From Patescibacteria group bacterium (GTDB taxonomy: Bacteria > Patescibacteriota > Minisyncoccia > UBA6257 > GWB1-50-10), in contig JASEIC010000008.1 of NCBI GenBank assembly GCA_030017555.1, forward strand, positions 1 to 34,714: a stretch of DNA of 34,714 bases, in the 5' to 3' direction. Each line of letters begins with the position of its first letter. Position 1 is the stretch's first letter. A program made the position numbers and the translations under genes. This document shows positions 2,233 through 30,996 of the stretch, one piece after another. Below the pieces are notes generated by a model. It ran no database searches and was not told the DNA's origin. It saw only the letters and a program-made list of their open reading frames with translations.

Positions 2233-2642
2233 TATAAAGAGTATCTTCCTTCTATTCCTTCTATGTAATGTCCGGCCAAGCTTTCTTCTCTCGGGATCCA
2301 AACAAAACTTACTAAAATGCCTTTCATTAGCGCTCTAATTATATCTCTAATCGTTGTAGTAAGTTCTCGATTATTCAAATGCTTGCCTAATTTTTTTGAA
2401 TGTATCCAAGTAAGAGCAATCTTACTGTCGGTTTTAATTAGAACATTATCAACCTTATTAACCGAAATCCACATAAGAGCTTCTTTAATAGCTAAAAGTT
2501 CAGCGATATTATTTGACCCCTCTTCTTGAGTCTTTTCAACTAAAACATTACCGCTTTCATCGGTTACAACCATTACCATTTTTCTGATGGCTTGATTCTT
2601 CTGATTAGAATTTGAACATCCGCCATCAACATATAAAATCAT
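2232..2642 (-). CDS. RNase H-like (RNase HI family) protein
   Basis: MILYVDGGCSNSN..., NNIAELLAIKEALMW, VLIKTDSKIALTWI, HYIEGIEG match the DGG / AEL-E / TDS RNase H signature. Confidence 0.85.
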   Translation of the reverse strand: MILYVDGGCSNSNQKNQAIRKMVMVVTDESGNVLVEKTQEEGSNNIAELLAIKEALMWISVNKVDNVLIKTDSKIALTWIHSKKLGKHLNNRELTTTIRDIIRALMKGILVSFVWIPREESLAGHYIEGIEGRYSL

Positions 2643-3124
2643 AATTTATGAGGACAAATTTTATAGTATTGTTTTGCTAAATTACAGTTATAACAAAGTA
2701 CCTGATAACCTTTCGGAAAACTCATCTTCCGTAAATAACGAAGTATAGAAACTTGACTCCCAAACTTCTTTCTTTCTGCTTTACCATCATTATTTATATG
2801 GTCAATGCATAAAAATTTTATTTCAGTTTCACCACAACAATTACATTTAGGTTTTTCTCCTCCATAACCTTTTAATACATCAAACCGCAGTTCTTGATGA
2901 TGTTCGCGATTTAATTTCCTATACAGTTCGGGATTTTTCCAATACTTCTTTTTATAGCCGTCTCCTTGTCTTGTAGGAAATCTTTTATAATATTCTTTTT
3001 TACACTTAATAGTTATTTGATTAGCGCATTTCTTACAGTAAGAAGCAATTCCATCTTTATTCCTTTTATAAAAATAAAAATCTTTTTCGTTTTTTGCTTT
3101 CTTACACTTGAAACAGGTTTTCAC
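2639..3124 (-). CDS. HNH endonuclease (phage free-standing type, N-terminal zinc ribbon)
   Basis: CFKCKKAKNEKDFYFYKRNKDGIASYCKKC...CNCCGETEIKFLCIDHINNDGKAERKKFG...FPKGYQVLCYNCNLAK. GTG start after AGGT. Confidence 0.88.
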   Translation of the reverse strand: MKTCFKCKKAKNEKDFYFYKRNKDGIASYCKKCANQITIKCKKEYYKRFPTRQGDGYKKKYWKNPELYRKLNREHHQELRFDVLKGYGGEKPKCNCCGETEIKFLCIDHINNDGKAERKKFGSQVSILRYLRKMSFPKGYQVLCYNCNLAKQYYKICPHKL

Positions 3125-9724: not shown

Positions 9725-12700
9725 TTATCTGAATATCTCTTCCAACGATCTTCTGCCAGAAAAAATATCTTCTAAAGTTCTTTTTTCCGGTTTCTTTTTA
9801 ATAGCATTATCAAGTTTTTTCTGTTGGGCTTCGCTTAAAAACTCCTTTAATTCTTTCTGTTCTTCAACATTAAACTGTCCATATAAATCCGCCTTCCTAT
9901 CATAATCCCCATTCTGTAAAAATTCAACCTGCGGGACAAACCATCTGCGATTTTCCGATTTTTCGCCTATATTTCTTACCCAATCTTGAGCGGCGATAGA
10001 ACCATATTTTCCCCTTAAAAACGAACGCACTATTTCTATTGTATCTTGAACCGGAGCGAGCATTTTACCTTCATTGTCGGTAATCCCGCCTGCTTCCATT
10101 ATTTCCATACCTTCCCGTAACCGACGGAACGTTTTAGGAATGCCAAGCGTTGTGCCAACCGACCACAAAAATTTTTCCTTATCGTCTTTAGAAAAATCTC
10201 TGACGATTGAATTTATATTTCCAATAACAGGAGAAACATTTATTTCTTTTTCGTTAAGAAACGCATAAACAACATTGCTTACTACTGGGATATTCCCAGT
10301 TAAAGATTGTAAAATATCTCTGGTCATACCAACCTTATCGCTCCACTTTGGGGATAAATTTTCAATCACTTGTTCTATATAAGCAATAACTGTTGCCGCT
10401 GTTAATACTTCGGCAATAGCAATCACTGTTTTTGCCGTTCCTTCGCCAGCTTGGTATCCAAGATATCCACCCGTCTTTATAATGTGCCGGTAAAATCCGT
10501 TTAACTGTGAAGTCAAAGGATAAAGAAACATTAAAATAAAATTACCGGTCTCTCTCTTAAAAAAATCAGGGCGGTCTCCTTGGTAAAAACTGCCATACCA
10601 TAAATCCACCCTATCTTGGGAAGTTTTAACAACTTGATCAATTACTTCTTGTTGCGGTCGTATTCCTGTTTTTTCCCATTGCTTGTATGTTTGAGCACCA
10701 AATTTATCCAAATATCCATTTAGAGATACTTGAGCATTTTTCCTATCAAATTCAGTAAGCGGCCCGGTAAATGTTCTACCAATCTTTCCCTGTAAATCCT
10801 GAATAGCAATATCGCCCTTTCTAATGGTTATACTTGGAAGTTGCGCAACATCTATACCAAACGCTTGAGCAAATTTGCTTTTTGTTTTTGGAACAGCCTT
10901 ATCAATTATCATTATTGGAATTTGAGTTAATGCCTGCTTTAATACAGAAGCATAATTTAATCCCAAAGCACCCATTGCTCCCGCTTTTCTTCCAAATTTA
11001 GAAAGTGCGGTTAATGCCATCTCACCCTCCACTTGTGAAACATAGGGCGTAGTAATTTCCTGAAGCCATTTATTTACATACTTCCAATCAGATTCTTTGA
11101 CGATATTTTTGAATTGGTTGCTGTTTGTGAGATATTTCAAATGATTAGTTGTCTCACTTATATGAATAAAGTCAGTAATTCCATCTATCCATCTCGCCAC
11201 CACTTTCCTATAATCAAGTTCATAAAGTTCAATCGGGGCTTTTTTCATTCTTTCTTTTAAGGAAAAAAATGCGGGATGATTTCTGAAAAGCCAATTCATT
11301 GCTCCGCCTTTATCAATCAATTTAATATCTTCACTGGTCATTAGAGGAGCATAATTTTTAACTTTGCCCGGAGTTTTGCCCATCTTCTTGGCAGTTTCAT
11401 AAAATCTGCCTTCGGTTTCTTTAATAATATTATCAAAAATTTCCACGAATTTTCTGCCTTTTTCGCTTAACTGCTCCAAAGGTATTTCCGCTCCCTTACC
11501 TTGTCTGCCAAGATAATACTTTGCCACACCTTCGGCTTCATTTTTGGATAAAGTAAATCTATCAGCGGTCAATAAACCAGCATCTTTTGCTAATCCCGCT
11601 TCCTTAAATCTGTTTATAAATCCTGTTTTAGCAAGTTCACCTTTTATGCCGTATCCTTTGGATGCCCTTTGCGCGCCAATAATAGAATCCCTTAAATAAC
11701 CAATTCCCTTACGCTCAAAAAATACCGCTGGAGTTTCAATTCCTCTTGCCACTTTAATTGGAATTTCCACACCCTCAACCAATACCGAGCGTTTCTCCCA
11801 TTTCTGTTTGGGAATTTTATCAGTATAAGATTTAGCAATGTCGTCTATTTCTTTTCTGGTAATATAAGTAGATAAACTTCTGTCAGGATTTCTTTTGACT
11901 TTAATGACATCGGTAAATTTTGTGCCATCTTCTAAAACAATATTGGCAATATCCTCATCTACAAGATAACGGGATTTTAATAATTTTGTAATTCTTTCCG
12001 TGTCGCCGTGAAAACGATTGATATTCTTAATGGTGTCCTGCCTAATTTTCTGCTGTTTGGCTTCAAGTTTAGCGACTTTCTCGGCGGCAATTTCAGCATT
12101 CTTGATTTCCTGTTTAGTGGCTTTAATTTCCGCTTTCAATCCAGCTCGCAGTTCTTTTATGGTTGGTTGGATTGTTTTAAACTCGCCCAAAGTGAAGGTT
12201 TCACCTTGAATGACTGCTGGCAAACGAGTTGGTATTTCTTCTGTTATCTTTTTTACTCCCTTAAGAGGTTCAAGTTCTTTGGGGATAAAGGTTTCGGCTT
12301 TTCTTAAATCCTGCATTCCTTTGAATTTTACCCATTGCTCAAAAGAGACTGGTTCGCTTCCTGCCTTTTTTAATTCGGCAACATAATTTCTATATCCCTC
12401 TAAATACTCCTGACTGATTTCTGCTCTTAATCCTTTGGGAACTTCTGGCACTCCTCCGACTTTCTTAACTGGTCTTATACTTAATCCAAAAGCGGGTTGA
12501 GGTTCGCCAGCAATAGCTTCGCCAGGCAGTTCTCTGACTAGGGTAAGTGGTTTTGGAAATACTATCTTGCCAAAATTCTCAATAGGAGTAGTTAGGGTAC
12601 TTCCTATTTTTTGTATCACTTTACCTAATGGATTTAAAGAAACCTGCCCACCCCTTACTGTAAGTTCGGAATTTATAGTCATTCCAGAAGCCATTATATC

Positions 12701-13831
12701 GTTTACGGCTTTTCTATCACCTGCTTTTACGGCAGTTTCTAAAGACTTAATAAAGTTATTTTTAAGTTGATCCCAAGTAAAATTATCTTTTAATGATAGG
12801 GTTTTAAGAGCATTGCTATATTCTGTGGAATAAGTGGCTTTTAATGCTTGTCTTGCTCCCAAATTTATAACTGCTTCTGCTATAAAAGCATCAAATACAT
12901 CGGGGATAATCACATCCTTTGAAGCTAATAAGGCATTACGCCATACATCAATAGTTTTCTTTGGCGGGGTTTGTTTGTTTAATTCATCATACCTTTCCCA
13001 TAATCTCTGCCCGGTAGTCTGAAGTCTGCCATTTATTCCTATTGCTTCAGGATTTATGGAAGATAAAACCTTTTCTACGGCAGGTGATCTTGGCTCTCTA
13101 AGAGTTAAAGCATTTAAATTCTTAGCTAACTGAACCCCGAGTCTTGCTACCGTATCAATAGTTACTGAACCCAAAGCATAAGCCACATTTAATGGGTAGG
13201 TTTGAGAAATTACTTCCGGTGCTTTTGCGGTAAAAAGAGGTTGTTTGATTGCGGGAAATTCTGTGGTAGCAAAGGGAACTGTTGATTGTGCGGTTCTTAA
13301 TTCGTCAGGAGTTTTTACTTGTCTTGACTGATAATCATTTAGCCTTGCCTGAACTTGCTGGGCAGTTCTGGCTGATTCTGCCTCTTTTTTTTTAGCAGAG
13401 AATAATTCGGGTATCTTTTTAAATTCTCCGATTATATCGGTAAAGATATTTGCCATATTAAAAACTCTCAATAATTCATCCCACAAATCTCCAGGAGCAA
13501 AAAATCCTCTCTTTGTTTGTGGTTTGGGTGAAACATTTATCTGAGCTTTAAGAGATTCTATTTGAGCCGTAGTTACTGCATCAATTGATTTAAAAGGTTC
13601 AACTAATGGTTTAAATAGCGGCGAAGGCTCATAGGGCTTCTTTTCGCCAATGGTTTTTAGCGGAGCATAGGAGATTTTCGGCTGGATAAGAGCCGATAAA
13701 TTGAGTTCTCTTTCTTTTCTGGCAAGTTCTGCTTCTATTTTTGATTTAGCCGCCGCTAATTGCTTGCCTAATTCTGGAAGCAATTCTACTCGTTTTTTTG
13801 TTTCTTGTAAGAGGGCAGATAGATTTAACAT
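9725..13831 (-). CDS. very large virion/ejection-type protein
   Basis: 1368-aa ORF between tail genes, charged/helical; size and position typical of internal virion or ejection proteins. No catalytic domain recognised. Confidence 0.6.
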   Translation of the reverse strand: MLNLSALLQETKKRVELLPELGKQLAAAKSKIEAELARKERELNLSALIQPKISYAPLKTIGEKKPYEPSPLFKPLVEPFKSIDAVTTAQIESLKAQINVSPKPQTKRGFFAPGDLWDELLRVFNMANIFTDIIGEFKKIPELFSAKKKEAESARTAQQVQARLNDYQSRQVKTPDELRTAQSTVPFATTEFPAIKQPLFTAKAPEVISQTYPLNVAYALGSVTIDTVARLGVQLAKNLNALTLREPRSPAVEKVLSSINPEAIGINGRLQTTGQRLWERYDELNKQTPPKKTIDVWRNALLASKDVIIPDVFDAFIAEAVINLGARQALKATYSTEYSNALKTLSLKDNFTWDQLKNNFIKSLETAVKAGDRKAVNDIMASGMTINSELTVRGGQVSLNPLGKVIQKIGSTLTTPIENFGKIVFPKPLTLVRELPGEAIAGEPQPAFGLSIRPVKKVGGVPEVPKGLRAEISQEYLEGYRNYVAELKKAGSEPVSFEQWVKFKGMQDLRKAETFIPKELEPLKGVKKITEEIPTRLPAVIQGETFTLGEFKTIQPTIKELRAGLKAEIKATKQEIKNAEIAAEKVAKLEAKQQKIRQDTIKNINRFHGDTERITKLLKSRYLVDEDIANIVLEDGTKFTDVIKVKRNPDRSLSTYITRKEIDDIAKSYTDKIPKQKWEKRSVLVEGVEIPIKVARGIETPAVFFERKGIGYLRDSIIGAQRASKGYGIKGELAKTGFINRFKEAGLAKDAGLLTADRFTLSKNEAEGVAKYYLGRQGKGAEIPLEQLSEKGRKFVEIFDNIIKETEGRFYETAKKMGKTPGKVKNYAPLMTSEDIKLIDKGGAMNWLFRNHPAFFSLKERMKKAPIELYELDYRKVVARWIDGITDFIHISETTNHLKYLTNSNQFKNIVKESDWKYVNKWLQEITTPYVSQVEGEMALTALSKFGRKAGAMGALGLNYASVLKQALTQIPIMIIDKAVPKTKSKFAQAFGIDVAQLPSITIRKGDIAIQDLQGKIGRTFTGPLTEFDRKNAQVSLNGYLDKFGAQTYKQWEKTGIRPQQEVIDQVVKTSQDRVDLWYGSFYQGDRPDFFKRETGNFILMFLYPLTSQLNGFYRHIIKTGGYLGYQAGEGTAKTVIAIAEVLTAATVIAYIEQVIENLSPKWSDKVGMTRDILQSLTGNIPVVSNVVYAFLNEKEINVSPVIGNINSIVRDFSKDDKEKFLWSVGTTLGIPKTFRRLREGMEIMEAGGITDNEGKMLAPVQDTIEIVRSFLRGKYGSIAAQDWVRNIGEKSENRRWFVPQVEFLQNGDYDRKADLYGQFNVEEQKELKEFLSEAQQKKLDNAIKKKPEKRTLEDIFSGRRSLEEIFR

Positions 13832-21470: not shown

Positions 21471-22784
21471 TTAATATAAGGCCGCCTGTGGATTACTGTA
21501 TCCCGTAGTAGAGATTAAAACATCGACTAATTGGAAAGTATGAGTCTTAAAGACTTTCCATCCCCCCAAAGTCCATGTTACGAAATCTTTAGCCACATAA
21601 CCGCCCGTTGCGCCGTTCCCTATAATATCGCCTGAAACTGTAAGTTCGGGATATCTCTGCATTACTAATGCGATTGACTGTGAAGTTCCAAATAAGGCAT
21701 GCACCGCCTGATTTGCAATCACGGAGCCTGACTCTGTCGTTGAAACAGTTATCCGTCCATGTCCATAGACATAGATTACACAAGTGCCATCTAAACCATC
21801 AACAGCATATAACATATCAGCAACCATCCTCTGAGCAATCGACAAATCGCTTCGAGTAAATGAATACCCATAAGCCGTTGCCGAACCGGTTGATGCTACA
21901 ACTCCTGCATTAATAAAAGTGCAAAGATTAGTGATTGAAACAGTCGCTGAAGTCGCCGCTTTCACTTTACCAGCCGCATCTAACGCGCCCGTTTCCCAAG
22001 CAAAAACTACTCCGCCAATCGTCAAGGTTGTCCCATCAACTGGAACTCCTGTCTGCGTAATCTTAAACGAAAACGGAAGAGCTGTAGAAACGAAAGTATT
22101 AAACCCGAAAAGCATATTAATATACCCGCGAGTTAATACTTGATCGCCTACATCGCCTGGTTTAAAGCCAATAGCTAAAAGAAGTTGCTCTTCTAATTCT
22201 GCCGGGATAGCGCAAGCTGGATATTTCGCCATCTTATCGAGTTTTACATCACCAGTCCATTTTTTATTTTCGTCATAAATAATGTTCTGGTTCCGTAATT
22301 TCCGGCGAGCGGCGGTAAATATCGCTGACGCGTTGGAACTTGAAACGGTAATCGGAGTGCCTGCCGCGCTTGAACCAATCGCCGCGTCGCTTGCATCCAA
22401 GCTGGAAGCGGCATTAATTACCATCTGACCTAAAATTTTCGAATCAATCTTCCAAAAAATCTTATTCATCGCCTTCATAGCCCATTTTTGCTGGGTCGGA
22501 CGATGATCTTGGATTCTTTGAGGAGCTGGAATACGAAAAGTGGCATTCGGTAATTGATTAACGGTCAAAATTTCATCGGTAACCGTCCGATTTTCAACCG
22601 TGTAAGAACCATCCGTGCCTAAATCACCTGAATCAATATCAGCATCATAAGACCATTTAATAGTTGCGCCTTCCGCCAAGACATTCGCAAACTTTTCATC
22701 TGCGAATACTGGGAAGATAGGCTGTTTATAATGGGTTTCCTGATACGCTTTTATCCATTCGGTTTTATACTTTTTGTTACTCCA
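21471..22784 (-). CDS. major capsid protein, exon 2
   Basis: The open frame extends upstream of the called TTG start: WSNKKYKTEWIKAYQETHYKQPIFPVFADEKFANV-LAEGATIKWSYDADIDSGDLG..., an MCP-type N-terminal region; TAG immediately upstream is the intron end. Confidence 0.85.
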   Translation of the reverse strand, partial: WSNKKYKTEWIKAYQETHYKQPIFPVFADEKFANVLAEGATIKWSYDADIDSGDLGTDGSYTVENRTVTDEILTVNQLPNATFRIPAPQRIQDHRPTQQKWAMKAMNKIFWKIDSKILGQMVINAASSLDASDAAIGSSAAGTPITVSSSNASAIFTAARRKLRNQNIIYDENKKWTGDVKLDKMAKYPACAIPAELEEQLLLAIGFKPGDVGDQVLTRGYINMLFGFNTFVSTALPFSFKITQTGVPVDGTTLTIGGVVFAWETGALDAAGKVKAATSATVSITNLCTFINAGVVASTGSATAYGYSFTRSDLSIAQRMVADMLYAVDGLDGTCVIYVYGHGRITVSTTESGSVIANQAVHALFGTSQSIALVMQRYPELTVSGDIIGNGATGGYVAKDFVTWTLGGWKVFKTHTFQLVDVLISTTGYSNPQAALY

Positions 22785-23096
22785 CTAATAATTTATAAAT
22801 TTAGTATTTTTATGAACCCTACCTATGGATCAAATATAATACTATTTTAAAGAACTAATGTGGTTAAACCATTTCGGGTTTAACTCATAGGTTTCATTTG
22901 GTTATAGCCTATGGTCGGACTATTGCATCGCTCCTCATAAAAGCGTCCTCTCGCTTAGTCTCTGCAAGTCCAGTACAATTTAATATCTTAATCTTTTCAT
23001 ATGCAAACGATATTAAATTACAAAGGTTCTTGAGCGTTGCCTTCTTCAAGGTTTTCGCCATTGATTAGAGAGGATTTAGAGTTCCCTATAAAACTA
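22785..23096 (-). ncRNA. group I intron (~312 nt, ORF-less) in the MCP gene
   Basis: P1: exon GTTCCT with IGS AGGGAAC (U-G at the 5' splice site); P3 CCTCTC/GAGAGG; P4 GGCG/CGCT; P5 CCTT/AAGG; P6 AATTTAATATC/GATATTAAATT; P7 from conserved GCAGAGACTA and ATAGTCC; P8 CGCT/AGCG; P9 CATAGG/CCTATG; P9.1 GTTAAACC/GGTTTAAC; P9.2 TAGTATT/AATACTA; terminal omega-G at 22785. Confidence 0.93.
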
Positions 23097-23123
23097 AGGA
23101 ACTGTATTTCCTGTAAAAGCCAT
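23097..23123 (-). CDS. major capsid protein, exon 1 (MAFTGNTVP)
   Basis: ATG GCT TTT ACA GGA AAT ACA GTT CCT, then intron starting TAG. Ligation gives MAFTGNTVP-WSNKKYKTEWIKAY... in frame. Confidence 0.87.
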
Positions 23124-23149: not shown

Positions 23150-24136
23150 CTATCCTATAAACTCCGGTTCCTCAGTTTGAAATTCTTTTTGCCTGCGTTT
23201 TTCATGCTTTTTCCATTTATCGGGAGTCATTTTTTCTGGATCTAAATCAATATCCTCTTCGTCTTCAACATCACCCATTTCTCTGCCCCCTATTTCGCCT
23301 GATTTCTTATTCGAGGCTACTTTTAGAATGGCAGTAAATTTATCTTTGTTTCTGAAAAGAATATAATCGAGGGAGTATGGTTTTAATATCTTATTTTTTT
23401 CATCCACTACTACCCCGCCTTCTTTTGAATGCGCCAATTTATCCATCAATTTTCTGGCTTCGGCATATTCACCCGCTCCCGCGAATGGAAACTGCTTTTT
23501 AAGAGCTGAAAGAAGTTCGTCCCATTCTTTATTAAAATGGTTAACTTCTTCAACTTGCCGTTCCTGAGACTTCTTTGATTCTTGTTCTTTAACCAAATTA
23601 TCCAATAATTTAAGTTTTTCGGAAACTTCAGGCAAATCCTTCTTCAGGATTCCTTTGGATTCCAATTCGCCTAAAAATTGTTTTTGAAACATTCCATAAA
23701 GCTTTTTAAGGCTTTCAGGATCTGCCCCGATTTCATCGGCTAAAACTTTTAAAGAATCATCAAATTCCTTAACAATCTCCTCTGTTTCAGGAGTTGTCTT
23801 TTTAAGCTCGGCAATCTCTTTACGCAATTCTCCAATCTGAGTAAATAAAGCTTTTAAAGGACGAGCTATTTTAGATTTGGAGGTCGACTTATCCCCCTCT
23901 TCTTTGCCTTCCTCCTCTTCCGATTCCTCTTCAGATTCCCCCTCCTCGGGTTCCTCTTTTAGAGTTCTCGTTGGTTCGGATTCCGGCTCTTCCTCTTTCG
24001 GTTCGGGTTGTTTTTCTTTTTCAACCTTTCCCTCTTGAGGTTCTTCGAGGTCTTTTACATCTTCCTCTTCGATGCCCATATTTGCTCTTGCTTTTGCAAG
24101 CGTGGAGTTGGGTTCCACAATAGGTTTATCACCCAT
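23150..24136 (-). CDS. capsid scaffold-like acidic protein
   Basis: Highly acidic, Glu/Lys-rich coiled-coil protein immediately upstream of the MCP. Confidence 0.65.
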   Translation of the reverse strand: MGDKPIVEPNSTLAKARANMGIEEEDVKDLEEPQEGKVEKEKQPEPKEEEPESEPTRTLKEEPEEGESEEESEEEEGKEEGDKSTSKSKIARPLKALFTQIGELRKEIAELKKTTPETEEIVKEFDDSLKVLADEIGADPESLKKLYGMFQKQFLGELESKGILKKDLPEVSEKLKLLDNLVKEQESKKSQERQVEEVNHFNKEWDELLSALKKQFPFAGAGEYAEARKLMDKLAHSKEGGVVVDEKNKILKPYSLDYILFRNKDKFTAILKVASNKKSGEIGGREMGDVEDEEDIDLDPEKMTPDKWKKHEKRRQKEFQTEEPEFIG

Positions 24137-27095: not shown

Positions 27096-27449
27096 TTATT
27101 TCTTGCTATTATTCTTTGCCATTTCTTGGGTTCTATAATTAAAATTATAACAAGCTACGCATATAGAACCGTACCTTTTTCCTTGTTTATCTTTTTGTCT
27201 ATTCGCCATTGGTTCCGGCACATGACAAATATCGCAATGCCACGCTTTATTATATTCTTTATAAGAATCTGAATATTTTGTCCCGCAGTTCGGACAAATA
27301 GAGAATATTAATCTCCAATGCATCATCGGCTTATTAGACCCGCTTCTAATAAAATAACCTCTATTACAAGATTGGCAAATTACTGAAATAAGATGTTTAT
27401 TCGTATTCATTCCTTTCGTATTCCTTCTGAGTTTGAGGTAATACTCCAA
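27096..27449 (-). CDS. zinc-ribbon protein
   Basis: CQSCNRGYF...CPNCGTKY...CDICHVP...CVAC, four CxxC knuckles. Confidence 0.65.
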   Translation of the reverse strand: MEYYLKLRRNTKGMNTNKHLISVICQSCNRGYFIRSGSNKPMMHWRLIFSICPNCGTKYSDSYKEYNKAWHCDICHVPEPMANRQKDKQGKRYGSICVACYNFNYRTQEMAKNNSKK

Positions 27450-29106
27450 AATTAGGCGTTAGTCTTGCTTTTAAATTTTCTCCTTCAAATTCACTGGGAA
27501 TATAAGGTATTGGTTCATAAATATTAGATGGTCTTGCAACTTCCGCATAATTCCTCATAGCATAAGCTATTGCGCAAGAAATTATTAAATCAAAGTGCCG
27601 AGTGGTTTCAATACCGCTTAATTCTTCCAAATCCGCCTGATTATATTTCCTTGCTTCCTCTAATACTCTTCTGTCTAAAATCCTTAATCGCCCGTCTTCA
27701 ATAGCGCTCTTTAACTGGTAAATCATTTCAGGTTTTGTAGCCCCGTTAGTTTCCCAACCAAGCTTATCGGTCGGCTTATCCGCTATATCGGGCAATTTAC
27801 CGGCTTGTCTTTTCCTATAAATCTTATCGATTGGATAAATGGCTTTTAAAGAAGTGATTGTGGCGTAGCCGGTATTATTAAGTTCTGGGGCTATCAAACA
27901 TCCGCCGAATAACTCTCCTTGCCTTTTAAGTTCATATCCGAAAATATCGGGAGCCATTCTGTTATTCGCGTAAGTTCCCACTAATAAGTTCGGGGTTTGT
28001 GAAAAGTCTATTAAAGCGCTTGCATTGGCATCCCGCCCGACACCGGCGGAAGTATCGGCTCCAAGAGCATAACGATGCTTTGGATTAAACTCGTCCCATA
28101 ATAGAAATCCCGCTTTATCCTCTTTTGGAATATCGCAGAATTTAATCAATTCATCTATCTTACGCCTGTCAAATATTAAAAATCCCGAGCTTGCCGAATC
28201 GTTCATCATTTCAACCTCGAATATCCTTTTATTGTTTACATTCAACTCTCTTTTCTTGGTTTCTAGTGAAACATAAGGCAATCTATCCTTTAAATCTTTA
28301 TTCTTATCGAACGCCTCTTCGTCGGTCAAAACATACTTGTCTCCCCATACGGGCTTATTATCAACGATCACCGGCAAGAATCTTACCCGCCCGTTAGCCG
28401 CCTTCGTCATATCCATTATAAAATTTATTACTCCATCCTCTCTAATGTAGTTGCCTAATGATAAAATCGAAGCGTCTGAAGATAATCCAGCCATTAGTTC
28501 TGAAATATGGCTTATTATTTTTTCGGTAATCTTATTGCTAATAATCGTTTTAAAATTCTCGGTATCGTCCAATATAATCATGTCGGGCCTTTGGCTTTTA
28601 TAAATCCAGCCCCGCGGGCTTTCCTGCGTGGAAAAAGCTCTATTCATTACTTTATTATTAGTAATGAATTGGCTTACTCTTTTAATCTTCTTTTCCTCCT
28701 CGCTTCGTTGTTCGATATAAAGATGCCCAAAATCAGCTATTAAACGCTGATTAGTTTGTAATTCCACAATAATATCAAATAACGCCATTTCAGCGTTTGT
28801 TTTTTCATAAGAGTCCCAGCCAATATATCGTTTCTTTCTATAACAAATATTCCAAAGTATTGATAATTTGGCAAAAGTGGATTTAGCGCTTTCCCTAAAA
28901 GCGATCCAAGCGGCTTTAGTAATCTTACCCATACTTAAATCCTCTACATCGTTAATGAAATCATAATGGAAAGGAGCCAAACTATAAGTAAAATAGTCGA
29001 TAAAATAATAAACGCAGAATAATAGAAAGTTTTTAGAACATAAATAAACTCGTTCATTACGAGTTCCATTTATTAACTTATCCTTAAGCTCCCGGCTTAT
29101 TTTCAT
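27397..29106 (-). CDS. terminase large subunit
   Basis: AAWIAFRESAKSTFAKLSILW (Walker A-like), RPDMIILDDTEN (Walker B), HRYALGADTSAGVGRDANASALIDF (nuclease). Confidence 0.85.
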   Translation of the reverse strand: MKISRELKDKLINGTRNERVYLCSKNFLLFCVYYFIDYFTYSLAPFHYDFINDVEDLSMGKITKAAWIAFRESAKSTFAKLSILWNICYRKKRYIGWDSYEKTNAEMALFDIIVELQTNQRLIADFGHLYIEQRSEEEKKIKRVSQFITNNKVMNRAFSTQESPRGWIYKSQRPDMIILDDTENFKTIISNKITEKIISHISELMAGLSSDASILSLGNYIREDGVINFIMDMTKAANGRVRFLPVIVDNKPVWGDKYVLTDEEAFDKNKDLKDRLPYVSLETKKRELNVNNKRIFEVEMMNDSASSGFLIFDRRKIDELIKFCDIPKEDKAGFLLWDEFNPKHRYALGADTSAGVGRDANASALIDFSQTPNLLVGTYANNRMAPDIFGYELKRQGELFGGCLIAPELNNTGYATITSLKAIYPIDKIYRKRQAGKLPDIADKPTDKLGWETNGATKPEMIYQLKSAIEDGRLRILDRRVLEEARKYNQADLEELSGIETTRHFDLIISCAIAYAMRNYAEVARPSNIYEPIPYIPSEFEGENLKARLTPNFGVLPQTQKEYERNEYE

Positions 29107-30633: not shown

Positions 30634-30996
30634 TTAAAAAAGGTTTGCCTCTAATAGTTTTGTCGGCCTGTTTAAAATTTTCTTTCTCCATATTTCTGCA
30701 TCTTCACGAACATTTGGATTATATGATTTACTAAATGACCTTAAATGTCCAAAAAGTAAATGACATTGATTTTTTCTACAAAGGGATATAAGGTTATTGT
30801 AATCTAATTCAAATTTTCTATCAACATCAAACTGCACTGGTAAAATATGGTGTGGCTCAACACTTTTTTTAGTCCCGCAGACGGCGCAATAAGGATATTC
30901 TTTTAGATATTCCTTCCTAACTCCATTCCATCGCCCGCTTCTCGCCCCTAATGGATAGCCTCTAAATATATCTTTAAAAAATTGGATTATATTCAT
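30634..30996 (-). CDS. HNH endonuclease
   Basis: YCAVCGTKKSVEPHHILPVQFDVDRKFELDYNNLISLCRKNQCHLLFGH. Confidence 0.87.
   Translation of the reverse strand: MNIIQFFKDIFRGYPLGARSGRWNGVRKEYLKEYPYCAVCGTKKSVEPHHILPVQFDVDRKFELDYNNLISLCRKNQCHLLFGHLRSFSKSYNPNVREDAEIWRKKILNRPTKLLEANLF

Follow-up and report, generated by a model that had tools for sequence, protein, structure and literature searches.

A group I intron very probably interrupts the likely major capsid gene of a tailed phage contig after codon 9

The window analysed here, a stretch of 34,714 nucleotides, corresponds to contig C38 in a 674-kb assembly and belongs to a tailed phage, with terminase, amidase/endolysin and exonuclease found on it. 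On its minus strand, ATGGCTTTTACAGGAAATACAGTTCCT at 23123-23097 encodes MAFTGNTVP and is directly followed by an in-frame TAG, as an earlier note on this DNA had described in placing an insertion after codon 9. The relevant features are listed below.

27397-29106: terminase large subunit
23150..24136, minus strand: scaffold-like gene upstream of the capsid gene (BLASTP E 5e-5; same place in the intronless L055)
23097..23123, minus strand: capsid gene exon 1, MAFTGNTVP, 9 codons (sequence; spliced frame)
22770..23096, minus strand: group I intron, 327 nt, corrected boundaries (model match 22863-23074; conserved 3' end; P10)
23080..23103, minus strand: P1 by folding, exon AGUUCCU 23103-23097 with internal guide sequence (IGS) GGGAACU 23086-23080, U-G at the 5' splice site
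23087..23094, minus strand: IGS strand of P10, GUUUUAUA, 8 bp with exon 2 bases 22769-22762, UAUAAAAC
23068..23074, minus strand: P3 5' strand UCCUCUC, partner GAGAGGA 22952-22946
23031..23060, minus strand: P4 (UGGCG/CGCUCA, bulged U) and P5 (CCUU/AAGG), by model alignment
22967..23030, minus strand: P6, stem AAUUUAAUAUC/GAUAUUAAAUU at 23019-23009 and 22987-22977
22988..23008, minus strand: P6 terminal loop, 21 nt, probable C-terminal remnant of a LAGLIDADG ORF (anchored frame comparison)
22917..22962, minus strand: P7, G-A bulge-GACUA 22962-22956 with UAGUCC 22922-22917, enclosing the P3 3' strand and P8
within 22917..22962, minus strand: P8, CGCU 22945-22942 with AGCG 22932-22929
within 22863..22913, minus strand: P9, CAUAGG 22913-22908 with CCUAUG 22891-22886
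within 22863..22913, minus strand: P9.1, GUUAAACC 22884-22877 with GGUUUAAC 22870-22863
22783..22860, minus strand: P9.2 hairpin, closed by CAUUAGU 22860-22854 with AUUAGUG 22789-22783
22770..22780, minus strand: conserved intron 3' end GUAACAAAAAG, terminal (omega) G at 22770 (motif common to relatives)
21471..22769, minus strand: probable major capsid gene exon 2, 432 codons and stop, starting YKTEWIKAYQ (homology to intronless major head proteins; gene order)

Both contig ends (4-332 and 34536-34714) carry one and the same 30-bp tandem repeat in the same orientation, an array that encodes a portion of a repetitive protein. The contig, 34.7 kb long, probably represents an entire circular-mapping phage genome opened within this array. 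A 1368-aa protein encoded at 9725-13831 (minus strand) falls in no Pfam or PHROGs family.

The host gene is probably a major capsid gene, as the earlier note had held, on the basis of weak HMM matches and gene order. The window protein has no match in Pfam and a weak one in PHROGs to phrog_283 (E 0.003); phrog_544 is matched by four of the six alignment members (lowest E 7.8e-6). Both families are major head proteins. The gene comes after terminase, portal-sized and scaffold-like genes; the second of these, a 659-aa gene between the other two, resembles a portal gene in position and size only. A single-sequence capsid search of viral contigs found none, a PDB sequence search with the capsid protein returned one weak irrelevant match only, and the AlphaFold model of the protein (pLDDT 39.6) was unusable for the HK97 fold. 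The intronless capsid relatives L057 and L003 (G766, G075) come from bins belonging to the window bin's order and class, which points to related phages with one group of hosts.

For the interrupting element, RF00028 gave no window match at its gathering score (cut-off 50). At an E-value setting it reached 11.9 bits with E 2.8 over the 701 bases searched, a lead only, in an alignment covering P7 GACUA/UAGUC, P3, P4 and the P5 region. The earlier note had named this search as a check and the absence of a match as a refutation, and literally no match at threshold was found, with a model that is insensitive to this intron family: in 15 relatives' contigs it recovered at threshold one family intron (L008, 50.2 bits) and a second intron in L013. 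RF00028 misses most relatives too.

Since Rfam alone left the matter undecided, relatives were sought in viral contigs through J6/7-P7 and J3/4-P4 signatures, the intron core and not the host gene being the criterion, which yielded 11 usable different elements. L021, L024 and L029/L030, which are more distant, did not enter the model; L004, L006, L007, L017, L019, L020, L023, L025 and L027 were chance pattern matches, had no R1 match and are not family introns. The covariance model R1 was built from the 11 viral relatives' cores, with P6 ORFs removed and the window excluded, and its structure was annotated by hand as group I, with P3 and P7 as the usual pseudoknot. In the relatives' alignment 97.2% of cells are paired, with double-sided changes in 27 of 40 pairs; none of 500 shuffles matched it on any of five measures, and when the pairing is shifted by 1-3 columns only 33-44% remains. 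Covariation across the 11 relatives backs both P3 and P7, P3 in seven of its seven pairs.

R1 finds a single match in the window, at 22863-23074 on the minus strand, with 126.1 bits and E 1.3e-28, and no other at E<=10. The score falls within the range of its training members' best matches (82-156 bits). Across 380 genomes of the phylum R1 gave 20 matches with a maximum of 48.6 bits, far below the window. The intron core pattern was not found in the genome contigs, and blastn of gene plus intron against 50,697 phage records gave nothing significant. The R1 score and the covariation in 11 relatives bear out the group I identity proposed in the earlier note, and on this comparative evidence a self-splicing group I intron with corrected boundaries in a probable capsid gene is very probably the right explanation.

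All helices of the group I core, P3-P8 and P4-P6 with the P3-P7 pseudoknot, can be placed in the window by homology and the relatives' covariation, and the P1 with its U-G pair, P9 and P9.1 that had been drawn from the sequence are there as well. P7 holds the guanosine site, a G-C pair with the adjacent bulge (G-A-GACUA/UAGUCC), next to which the relatives switch between G-C and A-U. P1 (AGUUCCU/GGGAACU), with its U-G pair at the 5' splice site, folds at -10.3 kcal/mol (z -2.9). Minimum free energy folding of the whole stretch gives z -2.4 and, with the P3/P7 pseudoknot beyond the method, has no proof value. The 3' end offers a terminal G, G22770, with an 8-bp P10.

This 3' end differs from that of the earlier note, which stopped the intron at 22785 (312 nt) and read the product as MAFTGNTVP-WSNKKYKTEW.... 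That boundary is very probably wrong; comparison with relatives places the most likely intron end at 22770, for a length of 327 nt, with ...GUAACAAAAAG before the cut and UAUAAAACC after it. Frame alone is unable to separate the two sites, because both are in frame, and the base at 22785 is likewise a G. The relatives' introns, however, end in (A)GUAACAA..G or a near variant, which the 22785 site lacks, and joining at the conserved-end G gives a continuous capsid frame in L012, L026, L013, L009, L028 and L018 (in L012, for example, ...SNIPL-LWGEKINEFFKLKLLIADFF, LWGEKINEFF). Within the window GUAACAAAAAG occurs as a single copy, at 22780-22770, against 0.04 expected. The P10 formed with G22770 has 8 Watson-Crick pairs, UAUAAAAC against GUUUUAUA on the IGS side of the P1 loop; over 55 candidate terminal G positions 22770 is best, against 3 bp for the runner-up and 2 bp for 22785. 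Shuffled AT-rich sequences of 300 nt contain an 8-bp P10 somewhere in 11% of cases, so this pairing counts mainly at 22770, because the relatives already predict that site. Several relatives have a short P10 or no perfect one.

The 22785 site also falls inside the 3' strand of P9.2 (22789-22783), and the five residues that it adds (WSNKK) have no counterpart in homologues. Five intronless homologues (L003, L053, L054, L055 and L057), in which R1 finds no match, carry Met 3-5 residues ahead of [FY]KE.FDNAYQ, and exon 2 of the window, YKTEWIKAYQ, stands in register with that motif. In relatives such as L012 the equivalent of 22785 would lie 10 nt upstream and break the frame. Taken together, we consider splicing after 22785 very improbable. 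The predicted spliced junction is ACAGTTCCT-TATAAAACC with the 22770 site and ACAGTTCCT-TGGAGTAAC with the 22785 site. The shift of 15 nt is frame-neutral, and phase 0, already claimed for the longer product, is kept: joining at 22770 gives MAFTGNTVP-YKTEWIKAYQ..., 441 aa.

There is a similarly small chance that the intron is degenerate and splicing-defective, or an assembly artefact, and that the capsid gene is split or dead. The sub-threshold Rfam match fits such a reading, but the core helices are all intact, R1 gives 126 bits against the relatives' 82-156, exon 2 is open for 432 codons and the sole start codon of the conserved N-terminus is the one in exon 1. Translation of exon 2 alone from TTG 22679, the earliest ATG/GTG/TTG of its open frame, with the upstream ATG starting an unrelated leader peptide, is likewise very improbable, as it would lose ~30 residues homologous to the intronless capsid N-terminus (K.....AYQ....K).

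The spliced group I intron that we favour had been called ORF-less and minimal. The first part stands, in that no intact LAGLIDADG ORF was found in the window intron; the second fits less well, as P6 resembles what a deleted LAGLIDADG gene would leave behind, with a 21-nt loop resembling an ORF tail. In L005, L012, L013, L014 and L026 a LAGLIDADG-type ORF lies within the P6 loop (with Pfam LAGLIDADG_1 matches in L012, L013 and L010, the last being identical with the L005 element), and the relatives' P6 ORF runs into P7 (...LKILNQRGLAETKR); the ORF of L018 appears internally deleted (GFIDGFEDH...AEIYSKLRVLNKRGLAETK). Read in the relatives' ORF frame, the window gives FAYEKIKILNCTGLAETKR and its loop gives FAYEKIK. 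Outside the RNA stem this reading is AYEKIK, which fits the six relatives more closely than do 99.96% of shuffled loops, and the anchored frame comparison of the P6 loop has a shuffle p of 0.0004-0.002. Nucleotide alignment of the loop with the relatives' ORFs is weak (only L005, at p 0.03), and for that reason the remnant is argued from the anchored frame comparison, with about 6 residues in its support. On this evidence an internally deleted LAGLIDADG endonuclease in the window P6 is likely. By aligned cores the window is nearest L005 (77% identity), which carries a LAGLIDADG ORF; the core tree places the window without resolution. Full LAGLIDADG ORFs (L012, L026), an internally deleted one (L018) and the trace in the window may form a decay series.

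Two free-standing HNH-like genes lie elsewhere in the window, both on the minus strand: one at 2639-3124, recognized by eye only and with no Pfam match, and one at 30634-30996, with a Pfam HNH match at the cut-off. Action of one or the other in trans on the intron site is conceivable.

We infer self-splicing chemistry, splicing in vivo and a past loss of the endonuclease. The 5' exon end AGUUCCU would pair with the internal guide sequence (P1), and a guanosine bound in P7 would cleave directly 3' of the U in the U-G pair. In the second step the released end of the exon would attack behind the terminal G of ...GUAACAAAAAG while P10 holds exon 2 (UAUAAAAC), joining the exons in phase 0 into the 441-aa protein. 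An in-frame stop precedes the core in nine of ten members with readable exons, and in the window it is the first intron codon; a ribosome on unspliced RNA would halt at this TAG and leave the core undisturbed, and, judging from general knowledge of how translation and splicing are coupled, the stop may serve to keep ribosomes off the folded core. A LAGLIDADG gene would once have occupied the P6 loop and been deleted later, leaving mobility only in trans or none.

Most relatives interrupt capsid genes, usually close to the gene start. Capsid-type hosts are indicated by HMM matches, some of them weak, for L009/L011/L016, L010, L012, L013, L018, L021, L024 and L028, and by similarity to HMM-supported relatives for L014, L015 and L026; the host gene type is ambiguous for L008 and L022, and the host of L029/L030 is not obviously capsid. 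Two or three family introns per capsid region occur in L022 (6391-8541), L013 (6031-6861) and L005 (2850-4150). A speculative reading, which we hold to be doubtful as a whole, is an intron lineage specialized on phage major capsid genes that occupies early positions in genes of several unrelated capsid families with an in-frame stop ahead of the core, swaps or loses its endonucleases, and through splicing may time or limit capsid synthesis. Alternatively, capsid genes may simply be a favoured conserved target.

For annotation, a plain ORF search misplaces the capsid protein start at TTG 22679, and the intron is missed at the Rfam default threshold; hence counts of spliced capsid genes among uncultivated phages are probably too low. 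Such introns are detected by a covariance model made from the relatives named above.

Several known systems can be set beside the window. The major capsid gene of mycobacteriophage LittleE contains a spliced intron, probably group I, whose splicing was proven by RT-PCR and N-terminal sequencing (PMC3706429), so that an intron in a highly expressed capsid gene, which the earlier note singled out, is not unprecedented. The LittleE intron is ~820 nt long, carries an HNH gene and lies well inside the coding region (PMC3706429), whereas that of the window has 327 nt and no intact ORF and follows codon 9; the phage types also differ. The capsid subunit gene intron of lactococcal phage Tuc2009 is a further capsid-gene case, likened here as it is cited in PMC3706429. 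Gut Jug phages have short group I introns (~206 nt on average) in essential genes, terL, nrdD and others being emphasized, and splicing of many is visible in metatranscriptomes (PMC12363816); by description, these share with the window short length and essential phage host genes. Group I introns with LAGLIDADG genes, their partners being of the single-domain LAGLIDADG kind, are described from the rRNA of CPR bacteria (PMC11270868), the same intron class in rRNA rather than a capsid gene. The 16S rRNA gene of the window's own bin (L032, C2:25473-25584) has a group I-like intron of this CPR rRNA kind, only distantly like the window intron (37.9 bits with R1). With RF00028 the window has the core in common, but scores 11.9 bits against the cut-off of 50. 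Capsid-gene group I introns are thus already known, and the window adds one more; less expected are its position at the N-terminal end of the capsid gene, of a kind that recurs in unrelated phages, and the blindness of default Rfam to it.
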